DNA of 64,000 bases from Pilimelia terevasa (GTDB lineage: Bacteria; Actinomycetota; Actinomycetes; Mycobacteriales; Micromonosporaceae), in NCBI RefSeq assembly GCF_014647915.1, contig NZ_BMQC01000005.1, positions 1-64,000 on the forward strand. Reading direction: 5' to 3'. The notes beneath the pieces are model-generated. The model searched no databases and was not told the DNA's origin. It saw only the letters and a list, made by a program, of their open reading frames with translations. Of this stretch, positions 1,992 through 40,214 are shown piece after piece. The stretch's first letter is position 1. The number at the start of each line of letters is the position of its first letter. A program made the translations under genes and the position numbers.

Positions 1992-2658
1992 ACCGGGTGC
2001 GGGGGCGGCCGCCGCGGCGGTACGCGCTGACGGTCGGGGCGTCCGCGACCCAGAACCGCCACGGCACGTCCGCGCCGCTGCTCACCCCCACCCGCGGCCC
2101 GGTACGCACCTCCCCCGCAGGCGCGGGCGCGGGCGCCAGCCGGATCGGCGCGGCGGGGTCCAGCAGGTCGACGCCGTTGCCGGTGCCGTCCACCCCCAGG
2201 GCCGCGCACAGCCGGGCAGGACCGCGGGCGAGATCCCGGTCGGCGCGGGCCGCCGGGCGGCGGGCGCGGGCCAGCTCGACCCCGCCGACCACCTCGCCGG
2301 CGCGCAGCAGGACGGCGGCCGCCGTGCCGGTCGGGCCGGTGACTACGTTGAGGCACCAGTGCACTCCGTAGGTGAAGTACACGTAGGCGCGCCCGGCCCG
2401 CCCGAACATCACCGCGTTGCGGGCGGTGGGGCCGCGGTGGGCGTGCGAGGGCGGGTCGGTGCCCTCGCCGCCGTACGCCTCCACCTCGGTCAGCGCGACG
2501 GTGACGCCGTGCGCGGCGAGGCGCGCGCCGAGCAGGCCGCGGGCCGCCACCTCGGGCGGCCCGGCCAGCAGCGCGGCCAGGGCGGCGCTCAGCGGGGCAC
2601 CACCGGCAGCGCCGCCCAGTCCCGCCAGTCGGTGAGCTTGTCGGCGACATCGCCCCAC
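1990..2658 (-). CDS. mpg: DNA-3-methyladenine glycosylase (AAG/MPG family)
   Basis: Base-excision repair glycosylase that removes alkylated purines. The AAG-family hallmarks are visible: the LTEVEAY segment containing the catalytic glutamate, the GRAGRAYVYFTYG substrate-pocket segment, NVV and the RAGE motif. The annotated GTG gives 222 aa but overlaps argH by 70 bp. The family fold begins around [11 protein letters not shown], where a CTG overlaps the argH stop, so the true start is unclear: either the overlapping GTG or a rare CTG. It is translationally coupled to argH and followed by tyrS. Confidence 0.85.
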   Translation of the reverse strand: MGRCRRQAHRLAGLGGAAGGAPLSAALAALLAGPPEVAARGLLGARLAAHGVTVALTEVEAYGGEGTDPPSHAHRGPTARNAVMFGRAGRAYVYFTYGVHWCLNVVTGPTGTAAAVLLRAGEVVGGVELARARRPAARADRDLARGPARLCAALGVDGTGNGVDLLDPAAPIRLAPAPAPAGEVRTGPRVGVSSGADVPWRFWVADAPTVSAYRRGGRPRTR

Positions 2659-4046
2659 TGGTCGGCGACCGCCTTCGGGCCGGTCGAGCCCGGGGTGGTG
2701 CGGGCGGCGAGCGCCGAGCGCACCGACAGCACCTCGCGGACCTCGGGCTCCAGGTGGGGGCTGATGGCGCGCAGGTCGTCGTCGGAGACCTCGGACAGCC
2801 GGCAGTCACGGCTGGCGCAGAGCGCGACGAGCTGGCCGGTGGCGTCGTGGGCCTCGCGGAAGGGGACGCCGCGGCGGACGAGCCAGTCGGCGACCTCGGT
2901 GGCGAGGGTGTAGCCGACCGGGGCGGCGGCGGCGAGCCGGTCCACCCGGACCGTCATGGTGGAGATCATGCCGGCGAGGGCGGGCAGCACGACGTCGAGG
3001 GTGTCGACGGCATCGAAGGCCGGCTCCTTGTCCTCCTGCATGTCCCGGTCGTAGGCCAGCGGGAGCCCCTTGAGCATCGTCAGGACGGTGACCAGCGCGC
3101 CGATCAGCCGGCCGCTCTTGCCGCGGGCCAGTTCGGCGATGTCGGCGTTCTTCTTCTGCGGCATGATCGAGGACCCGGTGGCGAAGGAGTCGTCCAGCTC
3201 CACCCAGCCGAACTCCTGCGAGGTCCACAGCACCACCTCCTCGCCGAGGCGGGACAGGTGCACGCCGGTCATCGCGGCCGCGAACAGGAACTCGGCCACG
3301 AAGTCCCGGTCGCTGACGGCGTCGATCGAGTTGGGGGCGGCGGAGGCGAAGCCCAGCTCCCTGGCGACCCGGACCGGGTCCAGCGGCAGGGACGAGCCGG
3401 CCAGCGCGCCGGAGCCCAGCGGGCAGACGGCGGCGCGGGCGTCCCAGTCGCGCAGCCGGTCGAGGTCGCGCAGCAGCGGGTGGACGTGGGCGAGGAGCTG
3501 GTGGCCGAAGGTGACCGGCTGGGCGTGCTGGAGGTGGGTCATGCCGGGGGCCGGGGTGTCGAGGTGGCGTTCGGCCTGCTCGACGAGGGCGTCGGCCAGC
3601 TCGACGAGGCGGGCGGCGATGCCGCGGGCCCGGTCGCGCAGGTACAGCCGCAGGTCGGTGGCGACCTGGTCGTTGCGGGACCGGCCGGCGCGCAGTTTGC
3701 CGCCGAGCGCGCCGAGCCGCTCCAGCAGGCCGCGCTCCAGCGCCGTGTGCACGTCCTCGTCCTCGACGGTGGGCCGGAACAGCCCGGCCGCGCAGGCCGC
3801 CTCCAGGTCGTCGAGCGCGGCCAGGGTGCGGCCGAGCTCGTCGTTGGTGAACAGGCCGGCGCGGGCCAGGACGCGCGCGTGGGCGCGGGAGGCGGCCAGG
3901 TCGTAGGGCGCGAGCCGCCAGTCGAACTGGACGCTGACGGAGAGCCGGGCGAGCGCCTCGGCGGGGCCGCCGGCGAACCGGCCGCCCCACAGTCGCGCGC
4001 CGCCGGCGGACAAGGATTGAGGATCCACGGAGTCCATTCTGCTCAT
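2589..4046 (-). CDS. argH: Argininosuccinate lyase
   Basis: Catalyses the last step of arginine biosynthesis, splitting argininosuccinate into arginine and fumarate. Fumarase/aspartase superfamily; 485 aa. It carries the LWGGRF N-terminal segment, the [11 protein letters not shown] signature loop and a full helical core. The ATG at 4046 overlaps the argG stop (ATGA), so translation is coupled to argG. Family members of this kind are homotetramers. No defects are seen. Confidence 0.96.
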
Positions 4047-5308
4047 GCGGGGGCGGCGGCGCAGGCTTGGCCGCCGGCGTGCCGCGGGTCGGTACCGGCG
4101 AGCCGGGCGTCGCGGGCGGCGGCGAGGCTGGCCGGCAGCCCCCAGAGGCTGACGAAGCCGCGGGCCAGGCTCTGGTCGAAGGTGTCGCCGGAGTCGTAGG
4201 TGGCGAGCCCGAAGTCGTACAGGCTGGCGGCGGAGCGGCGGCCGGTGACCACGGCGGCGCCCGCGTGCAGCCGCAGCCGGACCTCCCCGCTGACGCAGGT
4301 CTGGGTGTCGGCGAGGAACGCGTCCAGGGCGCGGCGCAGCGGGGAGTGCCAGAGGCCGTCGTAGACCAGCTCGGCCCAGCGCTGCTCGACGCCGCGCTTG
4401 TACCGGGCCAGGTCCCGTTCGAGGGTGACGCTCTCCAGCTCCTGGTGGGCGGCGATGAGGGCGAGCGCGGCGGGCGCCTCGTACACCTCGCGGCTCTTGA
4501 TGCCGACGAGCCGGTCCTCGACCATGTCGAGGCGGCCGACGCCCTGCGCGCCGGCCCGGGCGTTGAGCTGCCGGATCGCCTCGTACGGGGTGACCGCGGC
4601 GCCGTCGATCGCGACGGGGACGCCGGCCTCGAAGGCGAGGACGAGCTCGTCGGCGGGCCGCGGCGCGGCCGGGTCGGCGGTGTAGGCGTAGATGTCCTCG
4701 ACGGGGGCGTTCCAGATGTCCTCCAGGACGCCGGTCTCGACGGCGCGGCCCCACAGGTTCTGGTCGATCGAGTAGGGCGAGCGGCGGGTGACGTCGACCG
4801 GGAGTGCGTTGGCCTCGGCGTAGGCGATGGCGGCGTCCCGGGTCCAGGCGAAGTCCCGCGCCGGGGCGATGATCTTCAGGTCGGGCGCGAGGGCCGCGAG
4901 GCTCACCTCGAACCGGACCTGGTCGTTGCCCTTGCCGGTGCAGCCGTGCGCGACCGCGGTACCGCCGTGGCGGCGCGCCGCGGCGACCAGGTGCTCGGCG
5001 ATCAGCGGCCGGGACAGGGCGGAGACGAGCGGGTACCGGTCCATGTACCGGGCGTTGGCGCGCAGCGCCGGCAGGCAGTAGTCGGCGGCGAACTCGGCGC
5101 GGGCATCGACGACCTCGGCGGCGACCGCGCCGCAGTCCAGCGCGCGCTGGCGGATGGCGCCCAGGTCCTCGCCGTCCTGCCCGACGTCGATCGCCACGGC
5201 GACGACGTCGGCGCCGAGCTTGTCGGCGAGGTACGGGATGGCGACGGAGGTGTCCAGGCCGCCGGAGTAGGCGAGCACGACGCGCTCGCGGCTGTGGTCG
5301 GTGGGCAC
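4043..5308 (-). CDS. argG: Argininosuccinate synthase
   Basis: ATP-dependent condensation of citrulline and aspartate to argininosuccinate, the penultimate arginine step. 421 aa. The N-terminal ATP pyrophosphatase P-loop AYSGGLDTS starts at about residue 13, followed by typical [10 protein letters not shown] and [12 protein letters not shown] segments. It is preceded by a 92-bp gap after argR. This gap contains an 11-bp inverted repeat (5325-5335/5366-5376) that could terminate argR transcription or be regulatory. The citrulline-forming genes are not in this window. Confidence 0.96.
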
Positions 5309-5400: not shown

Positions 5401-5883
5401 TCAGCCGTCGGCGGGTCGCCGCAGCAGCGCGACGACGCCCGCGCCGCCGACGTCGTCGCGGGCGACCACGAGGATGGTGTCGTCGCCGGCGATGGTGCCG
5501 AGGATCTCGGCGAGGCCGGCGCGGTCGATGGCGCTGGCCAGGAACTGGGCGGCGCCGGGCGGGGTGCGCAGGACCGCGATGGTGCCGCTGGCGTCGGCGC
5601 CGGTGAGCAGGTCGCGCAGCAGCCGGTGCAGGCGGGCGGGGGCGCTCTCGGCGGGGACGAGCGGGTCGCTGTTGTCCTCGGGGATGACGTAGGCGCCCGC
5701 GCCGCCGCCGCGCGCCTTGACGGCGCCCAGCTCCTCCAGGTCGCGGGACAGGGTCGCCTGGGTGACCTGGATGCCCTCGCCGTCGAGGAGCGCCGCCAGC
5801 TCCGCCTGGGACCGGACCGGCCGCTGCCGGACCAACGTCGTGATGCGCGCGTGCCGCGCCGCCTTGCCCAACTGCATAGTCAC
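5401..5883 (-). CDS. argR: Arginine repressor
   Basis: Hexameric arginine-responsive repressor that binds ARG boxes. 160 aa. The N-terminal winged helix-turn-helix carries the [17 protein letters not shown] recognition segment (around residues 39-55). The C-terminal oligomerisation and arginine-binding domain carries GTIAGDDT. The GTG at 5883 has GCGGGG 6 nt upstream; an ATG two codons later is an alternative. A 14-bp ARG-box-like palindrome lies just upstream, which suggests autoregulation. Directly upstream is pheT rather than argD/argF, which is unusual. Confidence 0.93.
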
Positions 5884-5892
5884 ACGGTACCC

Positions 5893-5906
5893 CGCATAAT
5901 CATGCG
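5893..5906 (-). promoter_or_regulatory. ARG-box-like palindrome upstream of argR
   Basis: CGCATAATCATGCG is an imperfect 14-bp palindrome with the AT-rich centre typical of ArgR sites. It lies 10 bp upstream of the argR start. It probably mediates arginine-dependent repression of argR-argG-argH. It may be a relic of the argC promoter if the upstream arg genes were deleted (inference). Confidence 0.5.
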
Positions 5907-5998
5907 GCGCACCGGAAATGCGCGGGTGCCCCCGAACGGGCGACCGCGCCGGTCCCGACGGGCTGACCCGGGGACCGGCGCGGTCGTCGTCGACGCGC

Positions 5999-8509
5999 TC
6001 AGGCGCCGCGCAGGGTCGCCCCCGTCCGGGCCGCGGCCTCGGCGACGGCCGCGTCCCGCGCGGCGACCGCCTCCTCGGCGGTCAGCGTGCGGTCGGCGGC
6101 GCGGAACGTGAGCTTGTACGCCAGCGACTTGCGGCCGGCGCCGAGCTGGGCGTCGCCGCGGTACACGTCGAACAGCCGGATCGACTCCAGCAGCTTCCCC
6201 GCGCCAGCGGTCAGCGCCGCGTGCACCGCGCCCGCGGGGGTCTCCTCCGCCACGACGAGGGCGACGTCGATCAGCGCGGGCGGGAAGCCCGACAGCCGCG
6301 GCGCCAAGACGACCCCGGGCAGGGGCAGGCGGTCGAGGTTCAGCTCCGCCGCGCACGTGCGGGCCGGTACCTCCAGCGCCGCGCAGGCCGCCGGGTGCAG
6401 CTCCCCGGCGTGCCCGACCACCTCGCCGTCGACCAGCACCTCGGCGCACCGGCCGGGGTGCCACGGCGCGAACTCCGCCTGCCGCAGCGCGGTCCGCGCC
6501 GCCGGTACCCCCGCGGCGGCCAGCACCGTGCGGGCGGCGGCGGCGGCGTCCGCCCAGGACGCCGGCCGCCCGGCGCCCCACCAGCCGGCCGGCGCCACGT
6601 CCCCGGCGAGCACGACGGCGACGTGCTGCGGCTGCGCCGGCAGGAACCGGTCGGCGGCGGCCAGGTCCGCCGCCGCCGGCCGGTCGTCCACCCGCAGCGG
6701 CGGCGGCACCCCGGCGGCCGGCGGCGGGCCGAAGACCAGGCCCAGCTCGTACAGCGCCACATCGCGGTGCCCCCGGCCGACGTTGCGCCGCACCGCCGCC
6801 AGCAGGCCCGGCAGCAGCCGGGTCCGCAGCGCGGGCGCGACGTCCGACATCGGGTTGGCCAGCCGGAGCATCGCCCGCCGCGGGTCGTCGGCGGGCACGC
6901 CCAGGGCGTCCCACACCCCCGGGTCGAGGAACGGGAACGACAGGGTCTCACTCGCGCCGCCCTCGGCCAACGCGCGCGCCACGTCCCGGCGCCGCCGCTG
7001 CGCGTCGGTGAGGCCGCGGCCCGGCGGCGCGATCGGCAGCACGCTCGGGATGCGGTCGTACCCGTCCAGCCGCGCCACCTCCTCGACCAGGTCGGCCGGG
7101 TCCCGCAGGTCGGGGCGCCAGGCCGGCGGCAGGACCTCCCACCGGGCGTCCGGCCCGGATTCCGGCCCGGCGGCCGGGGCGACCGCGCAGCCGACCAGGG
7201 TCAGCAGCGCACGCACCCGGTCGGCGGGGTAGGGCACGCCCGTCGTCCGCGCCGGCAGGTCGACCGGCAGGAGCACCGGCTCCCGCGGCGGCACCGTGTC
7301 GATGTCCAGGACGTCGGCGCCGACCGCGCCGCCGCCGTGGGCGGCCAGCAGCTCGCCCGCCCGGCGCAGCGCCACGCCCGGCAGCGTCGGGTCCACCCCG
7401 CGCTCGTACCGGCGGCTCGCCTCGCTCGGCAGCTTGTGCCGCCGGGCGGTGCGGGCGACCGTCACCGGGTCCCAGTGGGCCGCCTCCAGCAGCAGGTCGG
7501 TCGTGGTGCCGGAGACCTCGGTACTCGCGCCGCCCATCACCGCCGCCAGCGAGACGACACCCGAGTCGTCGGCGATGACGACGTCCTCGGGGTGCAGCCC
7601 GCGCACGGCGCCGTCCAGGGTGGTCAGCTTCTCCCCCGGGTCGGCCCGCCGGATCACCAGCCCGCCGCGCAGCGCCGCCAGGTCGAACGCGTGCATCGGC
7701 TGGCCCAGCTCCAGCATCACGTAGTTGGTCACGTCGACGGGCAGACAGATGGGGCGCATCCCGGCCTGGGTCAGCCGCCGGGCCAGCCACGCCGGGCTCG
7801 GCGCCGCCGGGTCCAGCCCGCGGACGGCGACCGCCGCGAACCGGTCGCAGGCGCTCGGGTCCGCCACCCGCGCCGGGTACGCCGGGGTGGGCGTACCCGT
7901 CAGCGCGGCGGCTGCCGCCGGGTCGCGGAACGGCAGCCCGAGCGACGCGGCCAGCTCCCGGGCGATGCCGCGCACCGAGAAGCAGTACCCCCGGTCCGGC
8001 GTGACGTTGACCTCGACGACCACCTCGTCCAGCCCGACCAGGCCGCGCGCGTCGGCGCCCGGCTCCCCCGCCCCCGGCGGCAGCACCATGATGCCGTCGT
8101 GGTCGTCGCTGATCCCCAGCTCCCGGCCGGAGCAGATCATGCCGCGCGACATCCGCCCGTACGTGCGGCGCTCGCCGATACCGAACCCGCCGGGCAGCTC
8201 GCCGCCGGGCAGGATCACCACGACGAGGTCGCCCTCGCCGAAGTTGCGCGCCCCGCAGACGATCTCCTGCGGCGCGCCCGTGCCGTTGGCCCGGCCGACG
8301 TCGACCAGGCAGTACCGGATCGGCTTCTTGAACCCGGTCAGCTCCTCGACGGCGCTGACCCGGCCGACCACGAGCGACCCGGTGACCGCCGACCCCAGGT
8401 CGACGATCTCCTCGACCTCCAGGCCGACGCGCACCAGGGCGCGCTCCAGCTCGGCGGGGTCGGTCGGCGCGTCGACGTACTCGCGCAGCCACGAAACCGG
8501 CAGCCGCAT
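5999..8509 (-). CDS. pheT: Phenylalanine--tRNA ligase beta subunit
   Basis: Large subunit of the alpha2beta2 PheRS. 836 aa, normal length. Domains in order: an N-terminal EMAP-like tRNA-binding domain (residues about 40-160), B3/B4 editing domain, B5 domain, a catalytic-like core and a C-terminal ferredoxin-fold anticodon-binding domain beginning near the [15 protein letters not shown] segment. The start ATG is one base after the pheS stop (TGAGATG), so the subunits are coupled. In mycobacteria the next genes would be argCJBDF; here argR follows after 115 bp. Confidence 0.96.
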
Positions 8510-33447: not shown

Positions 33448-36829
<3,382 letters not shown>

Positions 36830-36837
<8 letters not shown>

Positions 36838-37966
36838 TCCCGGCCCCCTTCGTACCCGCGCCCTCGATGAGGTCGCGGAAGCGGTCGAACAGGTAGTCGG
36901 CGTCGCGCGGACCAGCCGCGGCCTCCGGGTGGTACTGGACGGTGAAGGCCGGGGCGTCCAGCGCCCGCAGGCCCTCCACCACGCCGTCGTTGAGGCAGAC
37001 GTGGCTCACCTCGACCCGGCCGAACGCGGTGTCGGCGGCGGCGTCGGTCGGCGCGTCGACGGCGAAGCCGTGGTTGTGCGAGGTGACCTCCACCTTGCCG
37101 GTGGTGCGGTCCAGCACCGGCTGGTTGACGCCGCGGTGGCCGTACCCCAGCTTGTAGGTGCCGAACCCCAGCGCGCGGCCCAGGATCTGGCTGCCGAAGC
37201 AGATGCCGAACAGCGGGATCCCCCGCCGCAGCACCTCGGTGGCGAGCGCGACCGGGCCGTCGGCGGTCGCCGGGTCGCCCGGGCCGGGCGAGAGGAACAC
37301 GGCGTCCGCGCCGACGGCCAGCAGGCCGTCCAGCGTGGACGAGGCCGGCAGCACGTGGGTGGTGACGCCGCGGGCGGCCAGCCGCCGGGTCACGTTGCGC
37401 TTGATCCCCAGGTCCAGGGCCGCGACCGTGTACCGGTGGGTGCCCTGCGCGGCGACCGTGTAGGCCGCGGCGGTGCTCACCTCGGCCGACAGGTCCGCGC
37501 CGGCCATCGGCGCCGCGGCCAGCACCCGCTCGCGCAGCGACGCGGCGTCGGTGCCGTTGCTGGCCACCCCGGCCCGCATCGCGCCGCGCTCGCGCAGGTG
37601 CCGGGTGAGCGCCCGGGTGTCGATGCCGGAGATCCCGACCACGCCCTCGGCGGCCAGCCGGTCGCCCAGCTCGCCGGTGGACCGCCAGTTGGCGGCCCGC
37701 GGGCTGGGGTCGCGCACGACGTACCCGGCCACCCAGAACTGGTCGGACTCGTCGTCCTCGCCGTTGACCCCGGTGTTGCCCACGTGCGGCGCGGTCTGGA
37801 CCACCACCTGGCGGTGGTACGAGGGGTCGGTCAGGGTCTCCTGGTAGCCGGTCATCGCCGTGGTGAAGACCGCCTCGCCGACGGTCTCCCCCACCGCGCC
37901 GTACGCCTCGCCGACGAAGGTGCGTCCGTCCTCCAGGACCAGGATCGCTTCGTGGGTCACTGACAT
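36830..37966 (-). CDS. carA: Carbamoyl-phosphate synthase small (glutaminase) subunit
   Basis: Provides ammonia from glutamine to CarB. 378 aa: N-terminal CPSase_sm domain ([32 protein letters not shown]), then a class I glutamine amidotransferase with LSPGPGDP, the nucleophile in [15 protein letters not shown] and [10 protein letters not shown] plus [13 protein letters not shown] at 37966 overlaps pyrC by 10 bp. Confidence 0.97.
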
Positions 37967-39273
37967 GCCTTTCCGTCGAGGACCGTCGCGGTGCCGTGCA
38001 GGAACGTCGCGACCACCCGGCCGGGCAGCTCCAGTCCGGCGTAGGGGGTGTTGCGGCTGCGGCTGGCCAGCCCGCCCGCGTCGACCGTGCGGGTCGCGGC
38101 CGGGTCCACCAGCGTCAGGTTGGCCGGGCTGCCCGGCGCCGGGTCGTGGCCGTGGGCGTCGAGCCCGGCGATCCGGGCCGGCGTGCGCGACATCCGCCGG
38201 GCCACCAGCTCCCACACCGTCGCCTCGGGCAGGTCGGCCTCGCGCAGCACCTTGACCACGATGGACAGGGCCGTCTCCAGGCCGAGCATCCCCGGCCGGG
38301 CGTACGCCCACTCGCACTCCTTGTCGTGCCCGGCGTGCGGCGCGTGGTCGGTGGCGACCACGTCCACGACGCCCTCGACCAGCGCGGCCCGCAGGGCGGC
38401 GACGTCCTCGGCCGTCCGCAGCGGCGGGTTGACCTTGTAGACCGGGTCGTACCCGGCCGCCAGCTCGTGGGTGAGCAGCAGGTGGTGCGGGCACACCTCC
38501 GCCGTCAGCCGGGGCACCGGGCCGCGGTCGACCCACGGCCGCCGCTTGGCGTGCCGCAGGATCTCCACCGAACCGGCCGTCGAGACGTGGCAGACGTGCA
38601 GCCGCGAGTCGACGTGCTCGGCGAGCAGGACGTCCCGCGCGATGATCGCCTCCTCGGCGACCGCCGGCCAGCCGGCCAGGCCGATCCGGGCGGCGACCTC
38701 GCCCTCGTGCATCTGGGCGCCCTCGGTCAGCCGCGGCTCCTCGGCGTGCTGGGCGACGACCCCGTCGAACGCCTTCACGTACTCCAGCGCCCGCCGCATC
38801 AACCGCGGGTCGTGCACGCAGATCCCGTCGTCGGAGAAGATCCGCACCCGGGCCGCCGAGTCGGCCATGTCGCCGAGGGCGGCCAGGCGCTCGCCGGCCA
38901 GCCCGACGGTGACCGCCCCGACGGGCTGGACGTCCACCAGCCCGACCGCGCGGCCCCGGCGCCACACCTGCTCCACCAGGGCGGGGGTGTCGGCGACCGG
39001 GTCGGTGTTGGCCATCGCGCAGACGGCCGTGTACCCGCCGAGCGCCGCGGCCCGGGAGCCGGACTCGATGGTCTCGGCGTCCTCCCGGCCCGGCTCGCGC
39101 AGGTGGGTGTGCAGGTCCACCAGGCCGGGCAGGGCGACGAGGCCCTCGGCGTCGACGACCGCGGCGTCGGGCGCGGACAGGCCGGTGCCGACCTGCGCCA
39201 CCGCGCCGTCGCGCAGCAGCAGGTCCGCGCACTCGCCGCCGACCAGCCGGGCTCCCCTGATCAGGTACTTCAC
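37957..39273 (-). CDS. pyrC: Dihydroorotase, class I
   Basis: Cyclises carbamoyl aspartate. 438 aa amidohydrolase: metal ligands in [37 protein letters not shown] and ATDHAPHA. The GTG start overlaps the pyrB stop (GTGA). As in other actinobacterial pyr operons it lies between pyrB and carA. Confidence 0.96.
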
Positions 39274-40214
39274 TGACTCCGCCTCTCCGCACGGGTGCCG
39301 TTCTCCGCAAGGGTGCCGTCCAGCAGCAGGTGCAGGACGGCCATCCGGGTCCAGACGCCGTTGCTGACCTGGTCGACGATGGTGGACCGGGCCGAGTCGG
39401 CGACGCCGCCGTCGATCTCGACGCCGCGGTTCATCGGCCCGGGGTGCATCACGATCGCGTGCGGGGCCAGCCGCCCGGCCCGGTCGTCGTGCAGGCCGTA
39501 CCGCCGCGCGTACTCCCGGATCGACGGGAAGAACGAGGACGTCATCCGCTCGTGCTGGACCCGCAGCATCATCACCACGTCGACCTCGGGCAGGACCGCG
39601 TCCAGGTCGTAGCCGACCTCGACGCCGGCGCCGTAGACGTGGCCGGAGCGGGGTACCAGGGTCGGCGGGCCGACCAGGGTCACCTTGGCCCCGAGCGTGG
39701 TGAGCAGGATCGCGTTGGACCGGGCCACCCGCGAGTGCCGGACGTCGCCGACGATGGCCACCCGCAGGCCGGCGACGCGGCCGGTCCGCTGGCGGATCGT
39801 GTACGCGTCCAGCAGCGCCTGCGTCGGGTGCTCGTGGGTGCCGTCACCGGCGTTGACCACCGGCACGTCGACCCAGCCGGCCAGGCGGTGCGGCGCGCCG
39901 GAGGCCGGGTGCCGGATCACGACCGCGTCGGCGCCCATCGCCCGCAGGGTCAGCGCGGTGTCCTTGAGCGACTCGCCCTTGGCGACGCTGGAGCCCTTGA
40001 CGGCGAAGGCGACCACGCCGGCCCCCAGGCGCCGGGCGGCGGAGTCGAAGGAGAACCGGGTGCGGGTGGAGTCCTCGTAGAACAGGTTCACCACCGTCCG
40101 GCCGGCCAGCGGGCGGTCCGGCCCGGTGCCGGCGGCGAACGCGGCGGCGCGGTCCAGCAGCGCGGTCGCCGCGGCGGCGTCCAGGTCGGCGGCGGACAGC
40201 AGATGGGTGGTCAC
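39270..40214 (-). CDS. pyrB: Aspartate carbamoyltransferase catalytic subunit
   Basis: Committed pyrimidine step. 314 aa: carbamoyl-phosphate site [15 protein letters not shown], the [11 protein letters not shown] loop, [18 protein letters not shown] and [12 protein letters not shown]. No pyrI regulatory subunit gene is present. The GTG start overlaps the pyrR stop (GTGA). Confidence 0.97.

Follow-up and report, generated by a model that had tools for sequence, protein, structure and literature searches.

Staphylococcus aureus makes arginine from proline via PutA, RocD, an ornithine carbamoyltransferase, ArgG and ArgH, as was seen with transposon mutants and by 13C-proline labelling (PMC3510247, PMC9239276), and its P5C may be turned into glutamate or proline with more ease than into ornithine (PMC9239276). 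One survey of gut bacteria divided their arginine variants into the full pathway, ArgG/ArgH only (251 genomes), the upstream half only (5), and none; its table has no ArgF-ArgG-ArgH category (PMC9026213). For control of the genes, the footprinted Streptomyces operator consists of two 18-nt ARG boxes separated by 2 bp (PMC3293853). Partial arginine pathways are already known, those catalogued so far mostly in host-associated bacteria; a loss of the ornithine half with argF-argR-argG-argH kept looks uncommon, and our literature search found no paper joining the terms Micromonosporaceae, auxotroph and arginine. Here we examined a 64-kb stretch of DNA from Pilimelia terevasa (the window) in which pheT and argR are close neighbours, and searched the whole genome, a draft of 42 contigs and 4,535,755 bases (4.54 Mb; 98.82% complete), with family profiles.

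The pheT-argR junction and its putative operators

The order on the minus strand of the window is pheS-pheT, a gap, argR, argG and argH, and then a tyrS-like sequence (Table 1). The end of pheT (5999) and the start of argR (5883) leave 115 bp between them, the distance given in an earlier note on this DNA, and the junction sits inside a 323-kb contig. We judged pheT, argR, argG and argH by curated NCBIfam equivalog cut-offs, and all four were above them; the motifs sought in ArgR, ArgG, ArgH and ArgF were all kept, PheT was 65% identical to Micromonospora PheT, and argH and argG overlap by ATGA as read from the sequence. The description of argR, argG and argH as intact is upheld by these scores and motifs.

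Table 1. Features of the window, with the evidence for each
Feature	Coordinates	Strand	Evidence
Deletion junction; argC, argJ, argB, argD and argF missing between pheT and argR	5884..5998		Gene order of relatives; genome-wide argCJBD searches
pheT, phenylalanyl-tRNA synthetase beta chain, upstream flank of deletion	5999..8509	-	TIGR00472, 538.7 bits (cut-off 402.65)
argR, arginine repressor	5401..5883	-	NF002880, 206.2 bits (cut-off 200); TIGR01529, 138.7 (cut-off 130.45)
argG, argininosuccinate synthase	4043..5308	-	TIGR00032, 480.5 bits (cut-off 268.2); two sequence motifs present
argH, argininosuccinate lyase	2589..4046	-	TIGR00838, 558.8 bits (cut-off 279.5); one sequence motif present
Probable pheT terminator stem, without clear T run	5941..5986		16-bp perfect inverted repeat, 14-nt loop
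Putative ARG box 1, CCGCATAATCATGCGG, just upstream of argR	5892..5907		24.0 bits, top of all positions in 210 kb scanned
Putative ARG box 2, CTGCATAGTCACACGG, overlapping argR start, 20 bp from box 1	5872..5887		19.9 bits, second-ranked distinct site
carB, carbamoyl-phosphate synthase large chain	33448..36837	-	NF003671, 1583 bits (cut-off 599)
carA, small chain, start approximate	36830..37960	-	3' part of ORF 36830-39310, with carB directly after it; assigned from sequence and position

The contiguous order pheT-argC-J-B-D-F-R-G-H was found in Micromonospora chalcea, M. sp. KC723 and Salinispora fenicalii, with argC within ~300 bp of pheT; in Catellatospora and one other genome (G022) the arg cluster begins 4-5 kb further from pheT. 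The ancestral order that had been given for mycobacteria is therefore valid for Micromonosporaceae, as Micromonospora and Salinispora show, and because relatives carry pheT-argCJBDF-argRGH, it is the argC-to-argF block that is missing at the junction. The locus of Corynebacterium sp. ES2730-CONJ (L046, 12400-16800) reads pheT-argF-argR-argG-argH and lacks argCJBD at the position where P. terevasa does; that strain keeps argF in the operon, whereas argF of P. terevasa sits elsewhere. Judged at this one locus, the Corynebacterium case represents a possible parallel, independent event, and if that genome is without argCJBD elsewhere too, the same cut would have been made twice, the lineage being distant.

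Two separate palindromes lie in the gap, a G+C-rich inverted repeat (arms 5941-5956 and 5971-5986) and an ARG box. A G+C-rich stem is located at the same place after pheT in M. chalcea too, and the 16-bp repeat is probably the pheT terminator. The ARG-box-like palindrome mentioned in the earlier note was recovered as box 1 of Table 1, with box 2 as its partner. Within it, GCATAATCATGC at 5894-5905 is the sole exact match to GCATNNNNATGC in the 64 kb (expected 0.29), a lone pattern match that is not significant by itself. When 210 kb of the genome was scanned with a matrix hand-built from eight argC-operator sites of other genomes, a ranking that is descriptive, the four boxes of the argR and argF operators were the top four distinct sites; the two at argF are 20 bp apart and just before its start, the same arrangement as at argR. 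The case for these boxes rests on their position, tandem spacing and similarity to the argC operators of the family. An ARG box stands just before argC in most Micromonosporaceae checked, and the seven clusters of relatives that were scanned had no such box ahead of argF, argR or argG. The tandem boxes by the first gene of the Streptomyces argCJBDR operator have the same 20-bp period (PMC3293853), but precede argC, whereas those of P. terevasa precede argR and the solitary argF. Each of these two genes is apparently under a tandem-ARG-box operator and so under ArgR control.

Genes lost from the genome and the moved argF

For argJ, there was no PF01960 match in the whole genome (controls matched in 10 of 14 genomes). 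No gene in the genome was over the argC cut-off, the best TIGR01850 score being 43.8 bits against 233.6, for an asd-like gene; likewise none of its seven class-III aminotransferases was over an argD cut-off (best TIGR00707 score 383.8, cut-off 410.05). A search of the whole genome with PF00696 (AA_kinase) gave two genes only, which read by sequence and position as lysC-like (aspartokinase) and pyrH-like (UMP kinase); argB is absent, and as there is no third AA_kinase gene, neither was a LysZ-type kinase of LysW-dependent ornithine synthesis found. The loss of argC, argJ, argB and argD from the genome is firm.

The fifth gene of the block was found alone on contig C9 at ~78.6-79.5 kb (TIGR00658, 337 bits, cut-off 281). 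Its product retains the SLRTR, HPCQ and HCLP motifs, is 71% identical to M. chalcea ArgF, and falls in the ArgF tree inside the Micromonosporaceae clade with the operon ArgFs of the family (support 98/96 including genome G014, 87/80 without it). Because of this grouping, the moved argF looks like the original family gene, and not an acquired one. An OTC-like gene on contig C25 was rejected as argF, at 192 bits against the cut-off of 281 and well away from the ArgF clade in the tree. On contig C9 (L126, 7280-14589), argF has three trypsin-like genes and one subtilisin-like gene (subtilase) no more than a few kb away.

The earlier note held that the citrulline-making half of the pathway had either moved or been lost, and both outcomes occurred: argC, argJ, argB and argD were lost, and argF was moved. 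The half that is missing is, however, the ornithine-making one (argCJBD), since argF, the citrulline-making gene, has merely changed place. Nor is this the simple relocation considered there, with a complete argCJBDF cluster elsewhere; relatives carry the block at the junction, and the genome-wide search for the five genes recovered argF alone from an assembly that is 98.8% complete.

ArgJ was present in 59 of 61 relatives in a first search and in 351 of 355 family genomes overall (334 of the 336 that are at least 90% complete); of the genomes more than 92% complete, P. terevasa alone lacks it. The other three absences are in G171 (92% complete), G185 (82%) and G025 (80%). G171 is without ArgJ, yet 21 of the 22 genomes of its genus (g12) keep it; G025 was rejected as a second loss, since its cluster is present and interrupted by an assembly gap, argD lying at a contig edge and argF-argR-argG coming after it. 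Among the genomes searched, Pilimelia is represented by one species, so the loss may be at the level of strain or genus. In a 4.5-Mb genome from a family nearly all of which keep the genes, the cut between the ornithine-making and ornithine-using halves is a clean one.

Proline and the supply of ornithine

The proline branch is also incomplete at its start: no gene in the whole genome was over the cut-off for proB (glutamate 5-kinase; best TIGR01027 score 31.5 bits against 186). A proB over cut-off was absent as well from 6 of the 61 relatives (G004, G007, G011, G013, G014 and G026), all of which keep ArgJ and because of this could in principle make ornithine; of the 61, P. terevasa alone was found without both. 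The proB absence in six ArgJ-keeping genomes suggests that parts of Micromonosporaceae use ornithine as their source of proline. We considered a proBA deletion beside obg, and found obg of P. terevasa without an adjacent proB, but the relatives fetched were likewise, and no claim of synteny is made.

To our knowledge, glutamate is converted to glutamate semialdehyde or ornithine only by routes whose first enzyme is an AA_kinase-family kinase (ArgB, ProB, the P5CS kinase domain or LysZ). As argB-, proB- and LysZ-type kinases were not found in this genome, no known glutamate route to ornithine or proline is open. What the genome does encode is proline dehydrogenase, P5C reductase (ProC) and, as one of the seven class-III aminotransferases, RocD (ornithine aminotransferase; TIGR01885, 487 bits, cut-off 378); with OTC, ArgG and ArgH, all the genes of a route from proline to arginine are present. 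RocD is ordinary in Micromonosporaceae, and G025, which keeps argD-argF-argR-argG, has a RocD-like gene; its presence, being common in the family, says nothing of use toward ornithine. A true arginase was not confirmed, as one arginase-family protein scored 81 bits against a cut-off of 228, and the other is an agmatinase. The carAB genes are part of the pyrimidine cluster of the window, and CarAB can supply carbamoyl phosphate to both ArgF and PyrB.

This set of genes is close to that of S. aureus (PMC3510247, PMC9239276), which likewise encodes proline dehydrogenase, RocD, an OTC, ArgG and ArgH, and in both organisms the arginine genes appear to be under ArgR/AhrC-type control. The difference is that S. 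aureus still has argJBCD and uses the catabolic ArcB1, whereas in P. terevasa argCJBD and proB are gone, the biosynthetic ArgF is retained, and the route is read from its genes. Compared with the ArgG-plus-ArgH variant A1 of gut bacteria, for which salvage of a precursor is predicted (PMC9026213), the loss of upstream genes and the keeping of terminal ones are alike; variant A1 is without ArgF, whereas P. terevasa keeps ArgF and ArgR, which moves the likely point of entry for salvage from citrulline to ornithine.

Readings of the arginine gene set

We consider it likely that P. terevasa is an auxotroph that makes arginine from ornithine under ArgR, the ornithine being taken up or else formed from proline by proline dehydrogenase and RocD. 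In the simplest history, an ancestor with the usual pheT-argCJBDFRGH order would have lost argC, argJ, argB and argD, the glutamate-to-ornithine half, with the argC operator retained in front of argR; argF would have left with a copy of the operator, or gained one, to become the single gene now found elsewhere. The ornithine-to-arginine half (argF, argG, argH) would have been kept, with carbamoyl phosphate from CarAB and control by ArgR. Ornithine could then not be made from glutamate, nor could proline, proB being gone, and ornithine would have to be acquired from outside or formed from imported proline via proline dehydrogenase and RocD run toward ornithine. We infer the direction of this flux, and with it the auxotrophy and the ornithine source, from gene content. 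The organism probably depends on an external supply of proline or of amino acids of the arginine family. As RocD is common in the family and P5C may be diverted to glutamate or proline, the possibility that ornithine, citrulline or arginine is taken up directly has to be weighed seriously against the proline route. The prediction is that cells would not grow without arginine, citrulline, ornithine or proline, and that ornithine or citrulline would restore growth, as probably would proline; ornithine should satisfy the organism, since the missing half makes ornithine and argF is kept. A more tentative proposal, possible but in our view somewhat doubtful, is that with ArgB and ProB both gone, the organism has a single closed pool of proline and arginine, connected through RocD, and would make arginine exclusively from dietary proline or ornithine, along an animal-like OAT-OTC-ASS-ASL route under ArgR. 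P. terevasa may be a natural case of proline-derived ornithine as the sole internal source. A genome with argF, argG, argH and argR should not be counted as arginine-prototrophic.

The retained genes bear upon other explanations of the locus. The strain could be a plain arginine auxotroph in decay, which gets its arginine from protein breakdown and has argF, argR, argG and argH as remnants not yet lost, or for salvage of citrulline and ornithine; the protease-rich neighbourhood of argF (one subtilase, three trypsins) would fit a protein-feeding life, and sets with ArgG/ArgH only are common in gut bacteria (251 genomes; PMC9026213). Decay would not, however, predict intact genes with their motifs, an ArgF still at family-level similarity (71% to M. 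chalcea) after its move, or tandem operators at both argR and argF, and we think it unlikely. Recycling of citrulline by ArgG and ArgH alone, which the earlier note suggested, is likewise made less likely by an ArgF retained with its own operator. The possibility that the pathway is complete, with argCJBD in an assembly gap or relocated, is raised by the 42-contig draft and by argF, which did turn up elsewhere. We regard this as very improbable: four genes were missing in separate profile searches at 98.8% completeness, the junction is within a 323-kb contig and has a well-formed operator, and the true gap in G025, where argD at a contig edge is followed by argF-argR-argG, looks quite different. 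That a gap of the draft holds the argCJBD cluster is a slight possibility, disfavoured since the genes normally form one contiguous ~4 kb block, the flanks of which are joined here.

It could also be that ArgF, ArgG and ArgH mainly recycle ornithine freed by a StrB1-like amidinotransferase, which is encoded on contig C25 in what is probably a secondary-metabolite cluster. That cluster does have the amidinotransferase (PDB 1bwd, 319 bits) along with a second OTC-like protein and an arginine-hydroxylase-like oxygenase; but the cluster contains an OTC-like gene of its own as well as a transposase, and such recycling needs arginine to start and leaves the argCJBD loss unexplained, so that we find it quite unlikely. 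Synthesis of arginine from ornithine under ArgR is the reading we prefer.

The region of contig C25 in question (L127, 6581-16948) is likely a biosynthetic cluster, in which the StrB1-like amidinotransferase, the divergent OTC-like protein and the arginine/enduracididine-hydroxylase-like oxygenase are accompanied by a radical SAM protein, a glycosyltransferase, an O-carbamoyltransferase and an IS transposase.
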